Made by a program: the position numbers and the translations under genes. From Alphaproteobacteria bacterium (lineage in GTDB: Bacteria > Pseudomonadota > Alphaproteobacteria > Geminicoccales > Geminicoccaceae), in contig JALSGP010000038.1 of NCBI GenBank assembly GCA_026982705.1, forward strand, positions 1-43,714: a DNA stretch of 43,714 nucleotides, given 5' to 3'. How positions within the stretch are numbered: the stretch's first letter is position 1; each line of letters begins with the position of its first letter. This document shows positions 5,773 to 14,438 of this stretch, in pieces. Under the pieces are notes generated by a model, which was given only the letters and a program-made list of their open reading frames with translations, searched no databases and was not told where the DNA came from.

Positions 5773-6617
5773 GCATCTTCGACCTCTTCTGGCTCTTCTT
5801 CATCCTCTCCGCCCTCCAGCCGGTGCTGCAGCAGCGGATGCTGGAGGCCATGCGCACCCGCAAGATCCAGCAGATCGAGCGCGAGCGCGGCTCGCGGGTG
5901 ATCCTCATGGTCCACCGTCAGGAGACCATGCGCCTGCTCGGCTTTCCGGTGGTGCGCTTCATCGACGTGAACGATTCCGAGGCGGTGATCCGGGCCATCC
6001 AGATGACCGACCGCGACGTCCCCATCGATCTGGTGATCCACACGCCGGGCGGCCTCGTGCTGGCGGCCCTCCAGATCGCCCGCGCCCTCAGGCGTCATCC
6101 CGCCCGCACCACCGTCTTCGTGCCCCACTACGCCATGTCCGGCGGCACCCTCATCGCGCTGGCCGCCGACCGGATCGTCATGTGCGAGCATTCGGTGCTG
6201 GGGCCCGTGGACCCGCAGCTCGGCCAGTATCCCGCCGCCTCCATCGTCCGCGCCGCCGAGTCCAAGCCCGTCGAGCACGTGGACGACCGCACCCTGATCC
6301 TCGCCGACATGGGGCGCAAGGCCATCCGCCAGGTGGAGACGGCGGTGGTGGAGCTGCTGGAGGGACGCATGCCCGAGGCGCGGGTCCGGGAGGTGGCGGC
6401 GCTGCTCTCCCGCGGCACCTGGACCCACGACTATCCCATCACCGCCGACCAGGCCCGCGAATTCGGGCTCGACGTCTCCACCGACATGCCCGAGAGCGTG
6501 CTGGAACTCATGAGCCTCTTCCCCCAACCGGTGCGCCAGCAGCCCGGCGGCGTCGAGTACATCCCCGAGCCGCGCCACGGCGGCGGCCTGCCCGGCCGCT
6601 TCGAGCGCGAGGCGTGA
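5769..6617 (+). CDS. SDH-type (ClpP-fold) membrane-anchored serine proteinase
   Basis: This 282-residue protein begins with one hydrophobic segment (about 4-21), which probably anchors it in the membrane. A ClpP/SppA-like core follows: VNDSEAVIRAIQM, DLVIHTPGG (87-95), then PHYAMSGGT (119-127) with Ser124 as likely nucleophile. This pattern matches the SDH_sah/DUF114 family, named after serine dehydrogenase proteinase and common in archaea and thermophilic bacteria. The ATG overlaps the stop of the rhomboid gene. It probably handles membrane-protein fragments or misfolded proteins; that role is inferred from the fold and the neighbours. Confidence 0.85.
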   Translation: MSIFDLFWLFFILSALQPVLQQRMLEAMRTRKIQQIERERGSRVILMVHRQETMRLLGFPVVRFIDVNDSEAVIRAIQMTDRDVPIDLVIHTPGGLVLAALQIARALRRHPARTTVFVPHYAMSGGTLIALAADRIVMCEHSVLGPVDPQLGQYPAASIVRAAESKPVEHVDDRTLILADMGRKAIRQVETAVVELLEGRMPEARVREVAALLSRGTWTHDYPITADQAREFGLDVSTDMPESVLELMSLFPQPVRQQPGGVEYIPEPRHGGGLPGRFEREA

Positions 6618-6692
6618 AGGACCGTGTGCGCCGGGGACGAGGCCGCCCCGAGCGGCGTGGGCCGCCTGTGGCGTGATCGGCGCATCCCACGG

Positions 6693-6713
6693 CGCACCCG
6701 GACCCGGGGTGCG
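6693..6713 (+). terminator. Possible hairpin terminator after the proteinase gene
   Basis: CGCACCC (6693-6699) pairs with GGGTGCG (6707-6713) across a 7-nt loop, 76 bp after the stop of the SDH-type proteinase. There is no T-tract, so this is only a weak candidate for ending the sigma-rhomboid-proteinase transcript. Confidence 0.3.
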
Positions 6714-7747
6714 GCGACGTTCCGGACGGTCGAAACCGGCGGTGGGCGTGCGAAGACCGCCCTCCTCACCTTCCCCACGGGCGCGGGGGCACGCGTCGGA
6801 GGCCTGGGAGCGGCGGGAGGCGGGGCATGCGTTCCTCGGGTGGTGCCATTCCCGTCAATGATGCGCGGCGCTTGCACGGTTCGAAGACGGTGTGAACCGG
6901 AGGGGGTCGTGGCCCCCGCGCGGCTTCGGACGGATCCGGGGTGGGCGTTCGCCCCGGCCGACGGTGCGGGGATGGAGGCCGCTCCGGAAAATTTCCCGCG
7001 CGATCCCCGATCGCGGGGAAATCCGGTGGGATCTCCTCCTGTTCGCGGTCCGCGTGCGGCGTACGCGCGACGCGCATTCCGACCGGCGCCCACACCCCTT
7101 CGAGATCGGGCGGGTTTCGACACGGAGGTATCGTCTTCGCCCCGGTTCGATCCGAAATCGGATCCCATGCGGCAGGTGGGGACGAGCCGCAAGGAGGCGA
7201 GCCGCGCGGGCGGCCGGGATGCCCGCCCGGGCGATCCGACGGCACCCGGGTCACGCCCGGGGCCGCGGGATGGGCGCTGTCGTCGTCGTGACGCGGCGGC
7301 CGCGTCTCGTCGCGCGGAACGGGAACCGTGAAGGAAGCGGGGGGATCCGGAGATCCACGCCCCGCCCGTCCCCTCGGATCCTCCCGAAGGTCGGACGAGG
7401 TCGGAACGGGCGGGGGACGGCGTCGATAGGAGGCGATGTCGGAGCGCCGGTGAAGCGCGCGCCGGCACGGGAGCCATCGCCGACAGCAACCGTATTCCCG
7501 AGGTCGGACGTCACCCGCGCGGCGGCCCTCGGACCGCCCAGGCGGGAGGTGAGCCCGGATGCCGGCGCGACCGCGGCGCGGGTGGGGGCGGATCCGGGCG
7601 CTTCGCCGGAGCCGGCCCGGAGTCCGCACCCGCGCCGGTCCGGAGCCGGTCGCTGGCGTTCCCCTCGGGCGTGCCACTCCGACCGCCGGACGGCGCCCGT
7701 CTCGGCGAGCTCGTCTCACCGCCATCGGCGGGTGATCGCCCCGGGGG

Positions 7748-7779
7748 CCACCCGGGTGGAACGGCCCGCGCGCGGGCCG
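7748..7779. repeat. Two adjacent perfect palindromes
   Basis: CCACCCGGGTGG (7748-7759) is followed two bases later by the 18-bp perfect palindrome CGGCCCGCGCGCGGGCCG (7762-7779). Both lie in the gene-free spacer. Function unknown; they could be DNA-binding sites or RNA hairpins. Confidence 0.45.
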
Positions 7780-8030
7780 GGTCGCCCGCTTCGGGATCAT
7801 CGCCCACCCCGCCGGTCTCGGTTCCCGGGAAATGGAGGGGGCCGGGCGGTGTCCGTCCGGATCGGGCGATCGCCACATCGGAGGTGCGGCAGGACGCAAC
7901 CCCGAGACGCGCGGGCGGATCCCGTCCGCCTCGATTCGTACCGGCCCACCTCTCGAATCTGACCGAACCGTCCGCGTCTCACATGGATGGCCGTTCGCAA
8001 ACGCGCTCGAGCAACGGCGTCGAAACCGCT

Positions 8031-8060
8031 CGGATAAATTATCCGAATTTAGATTTTCGG
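8031..8060. promoter_or_regulatory. Overlapping, mutually exclusive inverted repeats in an AT-rich island
   Basis: CGGATAAATTATCCG (8031-8045) is a perfect 7+1+7 inverted repeat. Its last three bases also start a second hairpin, CCGAA (8043-8047) with TTCGG (8056-8060). The two cannot form together in RNA. The site opens the AT-rich island in the gene-free spacer. It may be an operator or part of a structured transcript; no regulator is recognised. Confidence 0.4.
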
Positions 8061-8096
8061 ACCATGAATTATTGGTGATGACATTTTCTATCGCGC

Positions 8097-8137
8097 CACC
8101 ATTTGACAAGTTCGGTGTGTTGAAATGGTGAATTTTT
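8097..8137 (+). terminator. Stem-loop followed by a T-run
   Basis: CACCATTT (8097-8104) pairs perfectly with AAATGGTG (8123-8130). After a GA bulge, CAA (8107-8109) can pair with TTG (8120-8122). The stem is followed by AATTTTT. On the plus strand this has the layout of an intrinsic terminator, although the stem is AU-rich. No gene precedes it, so it may end a small RNA from the AT-rich island. Confidence 0.45.
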
Positions 8138-9134
8138 GCAGAACGGATCGATGGAACGGGCGAAGGCATTGCAGACCGTCACCGTTCCGCTGTCCCGGAA
8201 TCCGGGGAAGCGAACCATCCCGCCGCACCCTCTCGTTCGTGTCGCGCGGCTTCCGGCGAGAGCGTGGCAAGCCGGGAGACGGCCGGCGCCCGCATCTCGT
8301 GACTCCGCCATCCCGCCGGCGAGGGTTTCCCTGGCGTCGATGGCCGGCGCCGCGTCCCGGGCTCACCCGCCGGCCGGCGCGGCCGGAAGTACCGGGGATC
8401 GAGACGGTGGCCCGACGATGGAGTGCGGGGGCGGAGCCGCGTGGGGCCGCCGGTCGGGGCGACGCCTCGGGCCCGGGCCGGGTTCGCCGCCTCTGGGGAC
8501 GGCGGTCCCGCGGGCCGGGACCGATCCGGCGGAGACGTCGGGCTCGGGGCATGGACGGGGGAGGATGATGCCGGCGGAGCCCCGTTCGCCCGGAAACGGT
8601 CGCGGCCTCGCTGCCGGATCGGCGAGGCGATCCTGGGCGGGGACGCACGCCCGCGGGGCGCGGGATCGGGTCGGGCCCCACCGCCATCGTCGCCGGTCGG
8701 AGCCGGGCATGTCGGCGGGGGCACACGAGCCGTGTTGTCGGTTCGCCATGGCATCGCCGGAAGCGGTGGGCCGGGAAGGCGACGGTCCCACCTGGTGGGC
8801 ATCTCGCCGGTCGCCGCGCACGCCGGGCGTCCGGGGCCGGGGGGCGGGGCGGGAAGCCGGACGGCGACGAGGGCGGAACGCGGACGCCCGTCCCGGTGCG
8901 CCGCACCCTCCGGACGGCGCGCATCGGCTCGCCGCGCCCGCATCCGCCGCGGCCCTCCGTGGTCGATCGGTTTCGCCCGCGAGCCGGGGGGAGAGCCCGG
9001 CCACGCGAGCCGGCGGCTTCCCCCTCTTCCGGCGCGGTCGGGATCCGCCGGCCGTCCGGTGGATCCCGACGGGACCGGCGATGCGACGGCGCGGCTCCGG
9101 TCCCTCTTCCCCGCCGGCGCACCCCGGTTCCGCT

Positions 9135-10850
9135 TCAGGCGGCGGTCCCGTCCTCGCCGGCGACGGCCGGGACCGCCTTCCGGATCCGCTGGACCAGCTC
9201 CCCGCGCAGGCCTTCGGTCGCCCGATCCAGCCGTTCCGCGAGACGGGAGAGGCGGGACGCACGCTCGCGATTCCGTCCCAGATCCTCCAGGAAGGCGGCG
9301 ATGCCGTTCGCCACCGTGTCGAGCGCGCTCGCCGTCTCGGCCACGCGATCGCCCATGGCGCGACTGGCCGCGTGCTGCTGGGCGACGGCCGCGGCGATGG
9401 CGTCGGTGATGCGGTCGATCTCGCCGATCCGGTCGAGGATGGTCCCGACCGTCTCCACCGCTTCGGCGCTGGCCTCGCGCATGGCGGCGATGCGCTCGCC
9501 GATGCGGCGGGTGGCCTCCGCGGTCTGTTGGGCGAGGGCCTTCACCTCGCCGGCGACGACGGCGAATCCCCTGCCGCTCTCGCCGGCGCGGGCCGCCTCG
9601 ATGGTGGCGTTGAGGGCGAGGAGATGGGTCCGCTCGGCGATCTCGGTGATGGTGGCGGTGATCTCGTCGATTCCCCGGGCCAGCTCCGTGAGACGATCGA
9701 GGCCGCCGCGCGTGTCCTCGCCCATGCGGGCGACCTCGCCCGTGTTCCGGCTCGCCTCCTCCAGCCGGCGACGGACATCCCCCACCGCACCGGCCAGTTC
9801 CTCCCCGCTCCGCGCCACCGTGTGGGCCAGCGTCCGCACCTGCGCGAGCGCCGCGTCGGTCACGCGGCCGCGCTCTTCGGCCGCCCCCGCCGTCCGGGCC
9901 AACTCCTCCACGAGACCGCGCAGTTCGCGGGCACCACCGCCCAACCGGGCGGTGGCCTCGGCCACGTCCCCCTCCAGTTGCCGCGCGAGGGCGAGGAGGG
10001 CCTCCCGCCGCTCCCCGGCCGCCCGTCCGAGACGTTCGCGCAGTTCCGCGAGCGCGCGGGCGAGGGCGCCGATCTCGTCCCGCCGGCGCACGCCGGGGAC
10101 GGCGCCGCGAGTGCCTTCGTTCCCGCGCAGGAAACCGGCGAGGCGATGCAGGGGCAGGGCGATGCCGAAGGCCGCGTAGAGGGTGAGGAGCAGCGAAAAC
10201 AGCATCGCCGGTGGCGTCGCGAACCAGGCCGCCCGCTCGATCCCCAGGGCCGTGGCCTCCATCTCCTCCAGCCGTCGCTTCAGGAGGGCCCGGGCCCCGG
10301 TGCGGAGGTCCTCGCTCGCCTCCATCAGTGCCTCCAAGGCCTTCGTCAACGATTCCGCCTCGGCGTCGAAGCGGGGCATGAAGGCGTTGCCGGCCCGGGT
10401 CCCGCCCTCGACATAGGCGCGTGCGAGCCGCCGTCCGGCCTCGACGAAGCCGGGCACGCGCGCCGCCAGCGCCTCCAGGCGCCGGCGGACTTCCCCGGCC
10501 CCGAGGCTCTCGGCGAGACGGCGCGCGGCGGCCAGACGTTCCTGCAAGATCCGTGCGTGGGCGAGGGCCTTCCTCTCGCCGTCGTCGAGACCGTCCTCGC
10601 CCCGCGTGGCGGCGAGATCGGTGAACCACTGCCACACCTGCACGATCTCGTAGCGGATCTCGTGGATGGTGCGCTCCAGACGGGAGATCCCGTCCGCGTA
10701 TCGCTCCATCTCGGCATGGGCGCGGGCCACGGTCTCGCGATGGGCGCGGCTCCCGCTCACCGCCGTCCAGGCGAGGACCGCCACCGCCACGCCCGTGACC
10801 AGGGCGAGCATCCCCAGCCGGGGCGCCAGTCCGAACATCCAGGTGCGCAT
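9135..10850 (-). CDS. Methyl-accepting chemotaxis protein
   Basis: This 571-residue chemoreceptor has a first membrane helix at about 9-31, a periplasmic helical sensor domain of about 180 residues, and a second membrane helix at about 210-232. A HAMP-like segment follows (235-290), then a long coiled-coil signalling domain. The conserved hairpin tip, [26 protein letters not shown], is at about 404-429 and should bind CheA and CheW. The ATG at 10850 follows AAGGAGG with a rather long 12-nt spacer. A run of 12 G (coding strand) lies 27-38 bp upstream of the start. No che genes are nearby, so it is an orphan receptor. The ligand is unknown. Confidence 0.92.
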
Positions 10851-11018: not shown

Positions 11019-11777
11019 GTGAGTCGGGGGCGCGTCGGTCTCTTCGCCACCTGTCTCGTGGACCTGTGGCGGCCCAGCGTGGGCTTCGCCGCCCTGGAGC
11101 TCCTGGAGCGGGCCGGCTATGCGGTGGAGGTGCCTCCGGCGCAGACCTGCTGCGGCCAGCCCGCCTGGAACGCGGGCGACCGGGCCGATGCCGCCGACCT
11201 CGCCCGCCGCACGGTGGCGCTCTTCGAGCCCTACGACTGGGTGGTGGTCCCCTCCGGCTCCTGTGCCGGCATGCTGCGGGTCCACTATCCGCATCTCCTC
11301 GCCGACGATCCGGCATGGGCGGCGCGGGCCCGGGCGCTGGCGGCGCGCGTCCACGAGCTCGTGAGCTTCCTCGTGCGGGTGGCCGGGCTGGAGCGGATCG
11401 AGGGGAGGCTCCCCTGCCGCGTCACCTATCACGACTCCTGTTCGGGCCTGCGCGAGCTCGGCATCCGCGAGGAACCGCGACGGCTGCTCGCCGGCATCGA
11501 GGGGCTGACGCTGGTGGAGATGGCCCGACCCGACGAGTGCTGCGGGTTCGGCGGGACCTTCTGTGTCAAGTATCCCGAGATCTCGGCCCGCATGGTGGAC
11601 GAGAAGGCCTCTGACATCGAGGCCACCGGCGCCGAGCTGGTGCTGGCGGGCGATCTCGGCTGTCTGCTCAACATCGCCGGCCGTCTCCGCCGCCGCGGCA
11701 GCCGGGTGGCGGTCCGCCACGTGGCCGAGGTGCTGGCCGGCCGGCTGGACGTTCCGCCCATCGGCGGCGACGGTTGA
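11019..11777 (+). CDS. lutA: L-lactate utilisation protein LutA (Fe-S oxidoreductase subunit)
   Basis: This 252-residue protein carries two CCG cysteine-rich domains, CCGQPAW (44-50) and CCGFGGTF (174-181). These bind unusual Fe-S clusters in LutA/GlcF/HdrB-type proteins. The second is followed by the typical FCVKYPEISARMVDEK stretch. LutA works with LutB and LutC to oxidise L-lactate to pyruvate and pass electrons to the respiratory chain. The start is GTG at 11019. The stop overlaps a possible TTG start of lutB, which shows close coupling. No lutR regulator or lactate permease is visible nearby. Confidence 0.92.
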   Translation: MSRGRVGLFATCLVDLWRPSVGFAALELLERAGYAVEVPPAQTCCGQPAWNAGDRADAADLARRTVALFEPYDWVVVPSGSCAGMLRVHYPHLLADDPAWAARARALAARVHELVSFLVRVAGLERIEGRLPCRVTYHDSCSGLRELGIREEPRRLLAGIEGLTLVEMARPDECCGFGGTFCVKYPEISARMVDEKASDIEATGAELVLAGDLGCLLNIAGRLRRRGSRVAVRHVAEVLAGRLDVPPIGGDG

Positions 11778-11788
11778 GGGAGGGGGTC

Positions 11789-13186
11789 GTGGAACCCGCG
11801 TCCCTGGCCTTCCGCGCCCACGCCCGCCGCGCCCTCGCCGACGAGGAGCTGCAGCGGGCGCTGGCCCGTCTGCGCCGCAACTTCCAGGAGCGGCGGGCGC
11901 GGGCGGTGGCGGCGCTGCCCGAATTCGAGGAGCTGCGACGGGCCGGCGAGGCCATCCGCGATCAGGTGCTGGCCCGTCTCGATCACCATCTCGAAGTCTT
12001 CGTGGCCCGGGCCCGCGCTGCCGGCACCGTCGTGCACGTGGCCGAGACCGCGGCCGATGCCCGCCGCATCGTCCTCGACCTGCTGCGATCGCGCGGCGTG
12101 CGGCTCGTCACCAAGAGCAAGAGCATGGTGGCGGAGGAGGTGGGGCTGGCCGAGGCCGTCGAGGATGCCGGCATCGCGCGGGTGGAGACGGATCTCGGCG
12201 AATACATCATCCAGCTCGCCCACGAGCCGCCCTCCCATCTCATCGGCCCCGCCGTCCACATGACCGAGGCGCGCATCGCCCGCCTCTTCGCCGAGGCCCA
12301 CGGCGGCCCGCCCGAGCGGGAGCCGGAGCGACTGGTGGCCCAGGCGCGCCGGGTCCTGCGGCGGAAGTATCTCGACGCCGGGGCCGGCATCACCGGCGCC
12401 AATTTCCTGGTGGCGGAGACCGGCTCGATCATCACCGTCACCAACGAGGGCAACGCCGAGCTCACCCAGGGCCTGCCGCCGCTGCACATCGTGGTCACGG
12501 GCATCGAGAAGCTCGTGCCCACCATGGAGGATGCCTTCACCCTGCTGCGGCTGCTGGCCCGTTCCGCCACCGGCCAGGAGTTCGCCACTTACACCACGGT
12601 GATCACCGGTCCGCGCCGGCCCGGCGACCGCGACGGGCCGGAGGAGATGCATCTGGTGCTGGTGGACAACGGCCGCACCGCCCTGCTGGGCTCGCGTCTG
12701 CAGCCCATGCTCCGCTGCATCCGCTGCAGCGCCTGCATGAACCACTGTCCCGTCTATCTGGCGGTGGGAGGCCATGCGTACGGCTGGACCTACGTGGGTC
12801 CCATGGGGGCGGTGCTGACCCCGGCGCTGGCCGGTCTCGAACGGACCTGGCCGCTGCCCGAGGCCTCCACCTTCTGCGGGCGCTGCGCCGAGGTGTGTCC
12901 CGTGCGCATCCCCCTGCCGGATCTCATGCGGGTGTGGCGGGAGGAGGCCTTCGCCCGGCGGCTGCCGCCGGCGACCCAGCGCCACGGCCTGCGTCTCTGG
13001 GCCTTCCTCGCCCGCCGTCCGGCCCTCTACCGGGCGGCCTTCGCGCCGGCGGTGCGGCTGCTGGCCCGGCTCGGCGGACGTCGCCGGCGGCTGCGCCGCC
13101 TGCCGCTCGCCGGCGGGTGGACGGCGGCGCGCGATCTGCCGGCGCCGGAGGGGCCCACCTTCCTCGCCCGGGTGCGGCGGCGATGA
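11789..13186 (+). CDS. lutB: Iron-sulfur cluster-binding protein LutB
   Basis: This 465-residue protein has a large LutB/LUD domain (about 60-290, including VTKSKSMVAEE and the ITGANFLVAETG segment). Two ferredoxin-like motifs follow: C310-x2-C313-x2-C316-x3-C320 and C363-x2-C366-x3-C370. They should carry electrons from lactate oxidation. A TTG at 11774 overlapping the lutA stop could also start the protein. I prefer GTG at 11789 because GGGAGGGGG sits directly upstream. The C-terminal hundred residues are Arg-rich. The stop overlaps the lutC start by four bases. Confidence 0.9.
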   Translation: MEPASLAFRAHARRALADEELQRALARLRRNFQERRARAVAALPEFEELRRAGEAIRDQVLARLDHHLEVFVARARAAGTVVHVAETAADARRIVLDLLRSRGVRLVTKSKSMVAEEVGLAEAVEDAGIARVETDLGEYIIQLAHEPPSHLIGPAVHMTEARIARLFAEAHGGPPEREPERLVAQARRVLRRKYLDAGAGITGANFLVAETGSIITVTNEGNAELTQGLPPLHIVVTGIEKLVPTMEDAFTLLRLLARSATGQEFATYTTVITGPRRPGDRDGPEEMHLVLVDNGRTALLGSRLQPMLRCIRCSACMNHCPVYLAVGGHAYGWTYVGPMGAVLTPALAGLERTWPLPEASTFCGRCAEVCPVRIPLPDLMRVWREEAFARRLPPATQRHGLRLWAFLARRPALYRAAFAPAVRLLARLGGRRRRLRRLPLAGGWTAARDLPAPEGPTFLARVRRR

Positions 13187-13863
13187 GCGACGCCCTCGCC
13201 CGCCTCCTCGCCCGCATCCGCACCCGCCTCGGCCGGCCGGCGGAGGCGCGGGGAGCGGAGGAGGTGGCGGCGCGTCCGGCCGGGCGGGTGGCGGGGCCGA
13301 TCCCTGCCCGCGCCCGCGTCGAGGGGGAGGCCAGGGTGGCGCTCTTCACGAAGATGGCGAAGGCGGTGGGCAGCGAGGTGGAACGTCTCGCCCATCCCGG
13401 CGAGGTGCCCGGCGCGGTGCTGCGCTATCTGCGCTTCCACAATCTGCCCAAGCGGCTGGTGGCGGCGGCGGATCCGCTGCTGGAGGCCAGCGGGCTCGCC
13501 CGCGCGCCGCTGCTCGAGGTGCGCACGGGTGCGGTCACGGCCGACGATCCCGTGGGGATCACCGTCGCCGAGGCGGGCGTGGCGGAGACCGGCACGCTGG
13601 TGCTGGCCTCGACGCCGGAGCGGCCCACCATGCTCGCCTTCCTCCCGGAAACCGCCGTCGTCCTCTTGCCTCTGGACCGCCTCGACGGATCTTACGAGGA
13701 GAGCTGGCAGCGCATCCGGGAACGCTTCGGCACGCCGCCCCGCTCCGTCAATTTCGTCACCGGACCGTCCCGTACCGCCGACATCGGTCTCCGGCTGACC
13801 ATGGGCGCGCACGGACCGAAGCGGCTCCTGATCCTGCTCGTGGACCGCACGGAGAGCGCATGA
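13183..13863 (+). CDS. lutC: Lactate utilisation protein LutC
   Basis: This 226-residue LUD-domain protein is the third component of the LutABC lactate oxidation complex. The family pattern ITVAEAGVAETGTLVL (about 123-138) and the C-terminal RSVNFVTGPSRTADIG segment are clear. The N-terminal 40 residues are variable and Arg/Ala-rich. The ATG overlaps the lutB stop in an ATGA arrangement, and its own stop overlaps the start of the Smr-domain gene in the same way. All four genes therefore look like one operon. Confidence 0.9.
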   Translation: MSDALARLLARIRTRLGRPAEARGAEEVAARPAGRVAGPIPARARVEGEARVALFTKMAKAVGSEVERLAHPGEVPGAVLRYLRFHNLPKRLVAAADPLLEASGLARAPLLEVRTGAVTADDPVGITVAEAGVAETGTLVLASTPERPTMLAFLPETAVVLLPLDRLDGSYEESWQRIRERFGTPPRSVNFVTGPSRTADIGLRLTMGAHGPKRLLILLVDRTESA

Positions 13864-14438
13864 GGGATCCGCGCACGCGGCCGCACGTGCGCCAGCCCAG
13901 CGAGGAGGAGCTGCGGCTGTGGCGCTGCGTGGTCCGCACAGTCCGACCCCTGCATCCCGAATCCGGTGGGCGCCCCGCGGGCGACGGCGTCCGGCCGGAG
14001 AGCGCGGCGGAGACGATCCCGGCCCGCCCCGCGGGTCCGGCGACGCGGCCGGCGGTGGCGGCGCGGCGGAGCTGTCGGCCCGCGCCGCCGCCCCTCGCCC
14101 TCGATCCCGCCCGCCCCGTCGGCATCGACCGCGCCACCTGGCGGCGGCTGCGCCGCGGACGGCTCGCCGTCGAGGGCACCCTCGACCTCCACGGGCTCAC
14201 CCGCGAGGAGGCCTTCCGCGCCCTCGAACGCTTCCTCGCCCGCATGCAGACCTCCGGCGCCCGCTGCGTGCTGGTGGTCACCGGCCGCGGCCGTCTCCGC
14301 GGCGGCGTGCTGCGCGAGCTGCTGCCGCGCTGGCTGGAGGCGCCGACGCTGCGGCCGCGGGTGGTGGCCTTCGCCCCCGCCCGGCCGGAGCACGGCGGCG
14401 ACGGCGCCTTCTACCTGCTGCTGCGCCGCCGCCGCTAG
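13860..14438 (+). CDS. Smr/MutS2-type domain protein
   Basis: This 192-residue protein has a variable, Pro/Arg-rich first half. A C-terminal Smr domain (about 100-190) has the hallmarks LDLHGLT (108-114) and TGRGRLRGGVLRELLP (141-156). Smr domains are DNA- or RNA-nicking modules. Stand-alone alphaproteobacterial members (DUF2027/Smr) often lie beside unrelated genes, and their role is not settled. The ATG overlaps the lutC stop, which links expression but not necessarily function. Confidence 0.87.
   Translation: MRDPRTRPHVRQPSEEELRLWRCVVRTVRPLHPESGGRPAGDGVRPESAAETIPARPAGPATRPAVAARRSCRPAPPPLALDPARPVGIDRATWRRLRRGRLAVEGTLDLHGLTREEAFRALERFLARMQTSGARCVLVVTGRGRLRGGVLRELLPRWLEAPTLRPRVVAFAPARPEHGGDGAFYLLLRRRR

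Follow-up and report, generated by a model that had tools for sequence, protein, structure and literature searches.

A gene-free, GC-rich 2.5 kb spacer beside a chemoreceptor gene in a Geminicoccaceae bacterium is probably unconstrained, lineage-specific non-coding DNA

What kind of DNA fills a gap of 2.5 kb between two convergent genes in a bacterium of very high G+C content? The window, that is, the whole stretch of DNA analysed here (43,714 bases), is contig 38 of a 2.66 Mb host genome assembled in 48 contigs, with a G+C content of 73.1% in the sampled part, and the spacer at 6618-9134 is an exact gap of 2517 nt running from stop codon to stop codon. It is bounded on the left by a gene for a ClpP-like, SDH-type serine proteinase (PF01972; 5769-6617, + strand), which is preceded by a rhomboid gene (PF01694; 4978-5772), and on the right by a gene for a chemoreceptor of 586 aa (MCP; MCPsignal, PF00015; 9135-10895, - strand). 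Beyond the MCP gene lies a conserved block of four genes (11019-14438, + strand), which we take to be LutA/LutB/LutC-like and Smr-like. The spacer has a G+C content of 0.743, or 0.761 without an AT-rich island that it contains. The original prediction, made from the sequence, described the spacer as gene-free and hairpin-rich, and proposed a structured non-coding RNA, a chromosome-organising site, a fast-decaying relic or a protein too diverged to be recognised.

The spacer does not code. The contrast in G+C between codon phases was 0.005-0.085 in 600-nt windows starting at 6601-8701, compared with a median of 0.335 over the window, and a contrast as flat as this occurred outside the spacer just in short, scattered places; a coding signal of the third-position type was absent throughout. 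Six-frame read-through of the spacer retrieved no family from Pfam, PHROGs or NCBIfam (best E 0.083), and its longest open frame (6766-8169, - strand) had no relative among 29 other genomes. The lack of three-base periodicity, the empty family searches and the absence of relatives of the longest frame together indicate that the spacer is non-coding. These observations bear out the predicted 2.5 kb gene-free region between convergent genes, and they contradict the suggestion of a highly diverged protein.

Comparison with sister genomes returned no homologue of the spacer: ten of the 59 other genomes have DNA matches to it, of just 34-70 nt, the congeners have none, and collections of phages and plasmids contained no DNA match. 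The genes on its left (a sigma-like gene, the rhomboid gene and the protease gene) and the block on its right (11019-14438) are each retained in relatives. The two blocks occurred together in none of ten loci of relatives (five per block, from G001-G004, G008, G016, G018 and one further record; several end at contig ends), where the MCP query was likewise unmatched. Past the protease gene, G001 carries a facing enoyl-CoA hydratase-family gene at a distance of ~630 nt, and G003 a gene that appears by eye to be acyl-CoA ligase-like. Three congeners contain no close relative of the MCP, the best match being 39% over the signalling part. Since none of the ten loci combines the blocks and the MCP is without a close congener relative, the junction between protease and MCP genes is probably specific to the host lineage.

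The spacer is one of several such stretches. Gaps were called by a custom codon-usage script in 742 kb of the host (window included) and in samples of four relatives, and those that were at least 800 nt long, aperiodic and GC-rich were counted. Gaps with coding-like periodicity, or of at least 240 nt with G+C under 0.62, were left out (36 of 625 in the host, 14 of 145 in G002, 15 of 343 in G008, 6 of 170 in G016 and 9 of 171 in G004). Ten such gaps were found in the 742 kb of the host, two in 190 kb of G002, which belongs to the same genus, and one in 200 kb of G016, while the samples of two other family genomes, G008 (400 kb) and G004 (200 kb), contained none. In the host, 5 of 75 convergent gaps and 5 of 514 others reached this length (Fisher p 0.004), an excess that was not significant in the relatives alone. 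The idea that all gene-free stretches are convergent was abandoned, as this applied to five of the ten under stricter gene calls. Some host gaps turned out to be neighbours parted by one small gene, which in one case is a real cupin gene. The host also contains low-G+C stretches (45-62%; L145 5371-6720 and 14041-16110, L140 1711-3780, L197 1171-3420, L192 1831-2880), probably representing foreign genes with a different codon usage. A large gene-free region on host contig C22 encloses a small gene that looks lipoprotein-like by eye (L206 16164-16433), with a matching stretch in G001, G009 and G011 and no Pfam family.

In base-step composition, the spacer lies at a distance of 0.086-0.136 from five other gene-free stretches and of 0.212-0.352 from four coding stretches. 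It thus has the composition of the host's other gene-free DNA, as expected for DNA that would long have evolved in this host without coding constraint. BLAST comparisons among eleven gene-free stretches yielded short matches only (best E 5e-5 over 34 nt); common 10- and 11-mers were more numerous than in shuffled sequences (1 and 4 of 100 shuffles, respectively, reached the observed level), and common 12- to 14-mers did not exceed chance. The spacer holds no repeat array and no words of at least 12 letters in common with other stretches beyond chance, though it may still contain a chromosome-organising site as originally proposed. An excess of GGATCC (8 copies, 3.18/kb vs 0.81/kb in the first host sample) was set aside because this word is missing from the top 6-mers after correction for dinucleotides, and a dif-like reading was dropped after by-eye comparison with the consensus.

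Within the spacer, G+C drops as low as 36% per 100 nt in the AT-rich island (about 8028-8150), which is flanked by DNA of 78-79% G+C. The island contains two perfect inverted repeats, one with 8-nt arms around a 1-nt centre (8030-8046), which is the sole terminator-like site on the + strand (one found, 0.8 expected), and one with 8-nt arms 18 nt apart (8097-8130). No promoter-like site was found in the island, and its reading as a promoter was rejected. Three of the 95 other genomes compared contain DNA matches to the island, 25-32 nt long, which are taken as chance, and phage and plasmid collections returned no match to it. At 48% G+C or below per 100 nt, 22 places were found in 742 kb of the host, and three of these have flanks of at least 70% on both sides: the spacer's own island, one in a gene-free stretch of C22 (28%) and one iteron array. 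The island may serve as a regulatory core, and is most likely an AT-rich insert of younger age or the remnant of one; island cases of this kind suggest that gene-free spacers tolerate AT-rich inserts. On contig C35 of G002 (L310 5800-7757), a genome of ~70% G+C, ~660 nt at 25-42% G+C follow an MCP gene and include a short open frame behind what appears by eye to be a Shine-Dalgarno-like sequence; this stretch looks like a foreign insert.

Collectively, these comparisons make it probable that the spacer is non-coding, lineage-specific, unconstrained and insertion-tolerant DNA at a junction of conserved gene blocks. Neutrality and the order of events we infer as follows. A rearrangement or insertion would have made the MCP and protease genes neighbours, and insertion and drift would then have gone unopposed at this convergent junction, which has neither promoter nor operon link. 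The spacer DNA would have drifted to the non-coding composition of the host, and the island would have arrived later. An imperfect hairpin 57 nt past the MCP stop codon (9029-9078, - strand; fold z -1.83 and -2.10) may mark the end of the MCP transcript and assist its termination. Some observations count against an unconstrained spacer, namely a mild excess of six-pair stems and one window with a fold z of -3.48, the rarity of the island type, the absence of any remnant of a source gene among the search results, the truncation of several of the synteny loci by contig ends, and the over-representation of MCPs beside long gaps, which plain neutrality does not predict.

This last observation underlies the alternative that survives best, although we consider it unlikely: the spacer would belong to the MCP gene, MCP genes of this genus being trailed by long 3' regions that act as a long mRNA tail or as a buffer against convergent transcription, with length or composition mattering rather than sequence. 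The host genome has six PF00015 genes, whose 3' gaps of 2517, 2538, 1174, 629, 253 and 227 nt all reach at least 227 nt, a length attained by 6.5% of 585 host 3' gaps. Long 3' gaps also follow all five MCP genes scored in G002 (1958 nt, low in G+C; 1524 nt, partly periodic; 1058, 687 and 286 nt) and all three in G016 (1061 nt, partly periodic; 795 and 722 nt). GGDEF genes were used as a control, with 27 of 30 given places scored (two were not called by the gene finder and one had no neighbour), and their 3' gaps were -14 to 421 nt in the host (11 scored), -14 to 1495 nt in G002 (8) and 25 to 344 nt in G016 (8 of 17 places taken). MCP gaps were longer than GGDEF gaps in rank tests for the host (p 0.001), G002 (p 0.015) and G016 (p 0.006), from which the MCP flanks of G001 (two) and G003 (one) were excluded as they reach contig ends. 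A strict set that drops the window's MCP, three MCP gaps of low G+C or partial periodicity and two GGDEF gaps gave p 0.0027, 0.033 and 0.028 (combined 2.5e-4). In addition, three of the four gene-free stretches whose flanks were looked up touch the 3' end of an MCP gene. MCP genes thus adjoin long non-coding 3' flanks more often than expected, which we treat as a lead.

However, the association was noticed first and tested afterwards, with a custom gene caller, and the six MCP genes of G004 are all followed by short gaps (27, 102, 184, 144, 27 and 27 nt). Only three of the ten host gaps of at least 800 nt touch an MCP gene, and the largest (3024 nt) and another of 2434 nt do not. The MCP 3' flanks have in common two matches of 20-34 nt and an iteron motif in one orthologous pair, with no consistent strand skew, and long gaps would also be expected of accessory genes sitting where constraint is loose. 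A broader version, somewhat more doubtful still, holds that MCPs of this genus, and of one more genome in the family, are systematically trailed by GC-rich non-coding domains of 0.2-2.5 kb, some with an AT-rich core, whose length or composition is selected for one of the two roles named above. RNAs derived from the 3' ends of motility genes are known, and the spacer resembles their sources in being non-coding DNA directly past a chemotaxis gene, but it differs in its kilobase length and its lack of conserved sequence, and it is known from DNA alone.

The iteron motif belongs to an observation in its own right. Of 31 family genomes, 14 carry direct-repeat arrays of GTGAAYGATGTACCGARTC (one mismatch allowed); none of 65 others does, and a reversed-pattern control gave no hit. 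The arrays are located on host contig C22 (L206 7941 and 9218-9686), on contig C142 of G002 (L314 8898 and 9782-10206) and in 12 more family genomes. C22 (60 kb) bears four of the six host PF00015 genes; in both the host and G002, the gene between the copies of GTGAAYGATGTACCGARTC is an MCP gene, and a ParA-like gene lies nearby in the host. In G016, the array flanks a replication initiator gene (RPA, PF10134, E 2e-73), and the array therefore looks like an iteron origin, either of a plasmid or of a secondary replicon.

It is less probable again that the island or the best local hairpin (6984-7026, + strand; core 6992-7021 with one bulged base) forms the centre of a DNA-binding site or a non-coding RNA carried by the spacer. 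The island departs far from the background composition and has its two perfect inverted repeats, and the lowest fold z of the spacer, -3.48, belongs to the window at 6960, which spans the hairpin. Folded more closely, the hairpin stands out weakly, with z -2.82 on the + strand (6960-7045) and z -1.84 on the - strand (6975-7035), and no second copy was detected in the sampled stretches. The island itself folds with z 0.01 (+) and -1.78 (-), and neither promoter-like sites nor homologues beyond the short matches described above speak for a function. Across the spacer, 120-nt sliding folds had a mean z of -0.16 (+) and 0.07 (-), and z fell below -2 in 3 of 82 overlapping windows, all on the + strand. 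A search of the spacer against Rfam gave nothing below E 1; two candidates, a c-di-GMP riboswitch (17.1 bits, E 1, cut-off 59) and mir-1909 (17.8 bits, E 3.7, cut-off 80), were rejected. The genome comparisons yielded no homologue for measuring covariation.

The predicted wealth of hairpins also largely dissolved on counting against dinucleotide shuffles. With loops of 3-12 nt, one perfect stem of at least 8 pairs was seen where 2.0 were expected, and nine of at least 7 pairs where 6.2 were expected (14 of 100 shuffles reach nine); at 6 pairs or more, 30 stems stood against 19.9 expected (1 of 100 shuffles reaches 30), a mild excess that is confined to very short stems. An 18-nt palindrome (at 7762) and a top score of 22 for inverted repeats, a level attained in 1 of 30 shuffles, were taken as near chance. 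Inverted repeats picked by eye in DNA of 75% G+C are thus mostly chance, and the structured non-coding RNA of the original prediction is left unsupported. According to the GC-IGR work (PMC6429828), gap length and G+C content help to find structured RNAs where genomes are AT-rich and their gaps short. The spacer, likewise a long non-coding gap, would be picked by length in such a screen; that approach favours AT-rich genomes in which high G+C marks RNAs, a cue that is lost here because the host has ~73% G+C, and the spacer gave no RNA signal.

We give a still smaller chance to the possibility that the spacer represents the still recognisable remains of a former gene, mobile element or phage piece. 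A lineage-specific junction beside an MCP gene without close congener relatives would fit such an origin, as would an inverted repeat near both spacer ends (6699-6719/9112-9132). This repeat does not surpass others in the spacer, lacks a flanking target duplication and was rejected as a pair of element ends. No transposase or other family appeared in six frames, no phage or plasmid DNA was matched, and no periodicity is left. Similarity to an intact gene was absent from 59 genomes, the family databases and, for the longest frame, 29 genomes, although an old relic would look alike. Of the four original readings, the fast-decaying relic agrees best with the data if taken mildly, to mean lineage-specific DNA without constraint; a trace of a source gene was not found. 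In Rickettsia, shrinking genomes are reported to retain ~25% non-coding DNA left by gene decay (PMC4683814); the spacer is similarly gene-free without detectable function, in a host genome smaller than most sampled relatives, but it differs in its very high G+C and in having no recognisable relic. An assembly error, conceivable in a draft of 48 contigs, is very improbable given the own-genome non-coding signature, the lack of long internal repeats and the occurrence of similar stretches in a congener and on further host contigs.

Among the matches listed, the accessible text of open papers describes neither such gene-free stretches nor long 3' gaps of MCP genes. If the link with MCP genes survives an independent test, a question would open on the long 3' regions of chemoreceptor transcripts. 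The spacer shows gene-free DNA accumulating in a very GC-rich lineage, whereas the samples from two further genera of the family contain none, and it offers material for work on how non-coding DNA is acquired and retained in bacteria.
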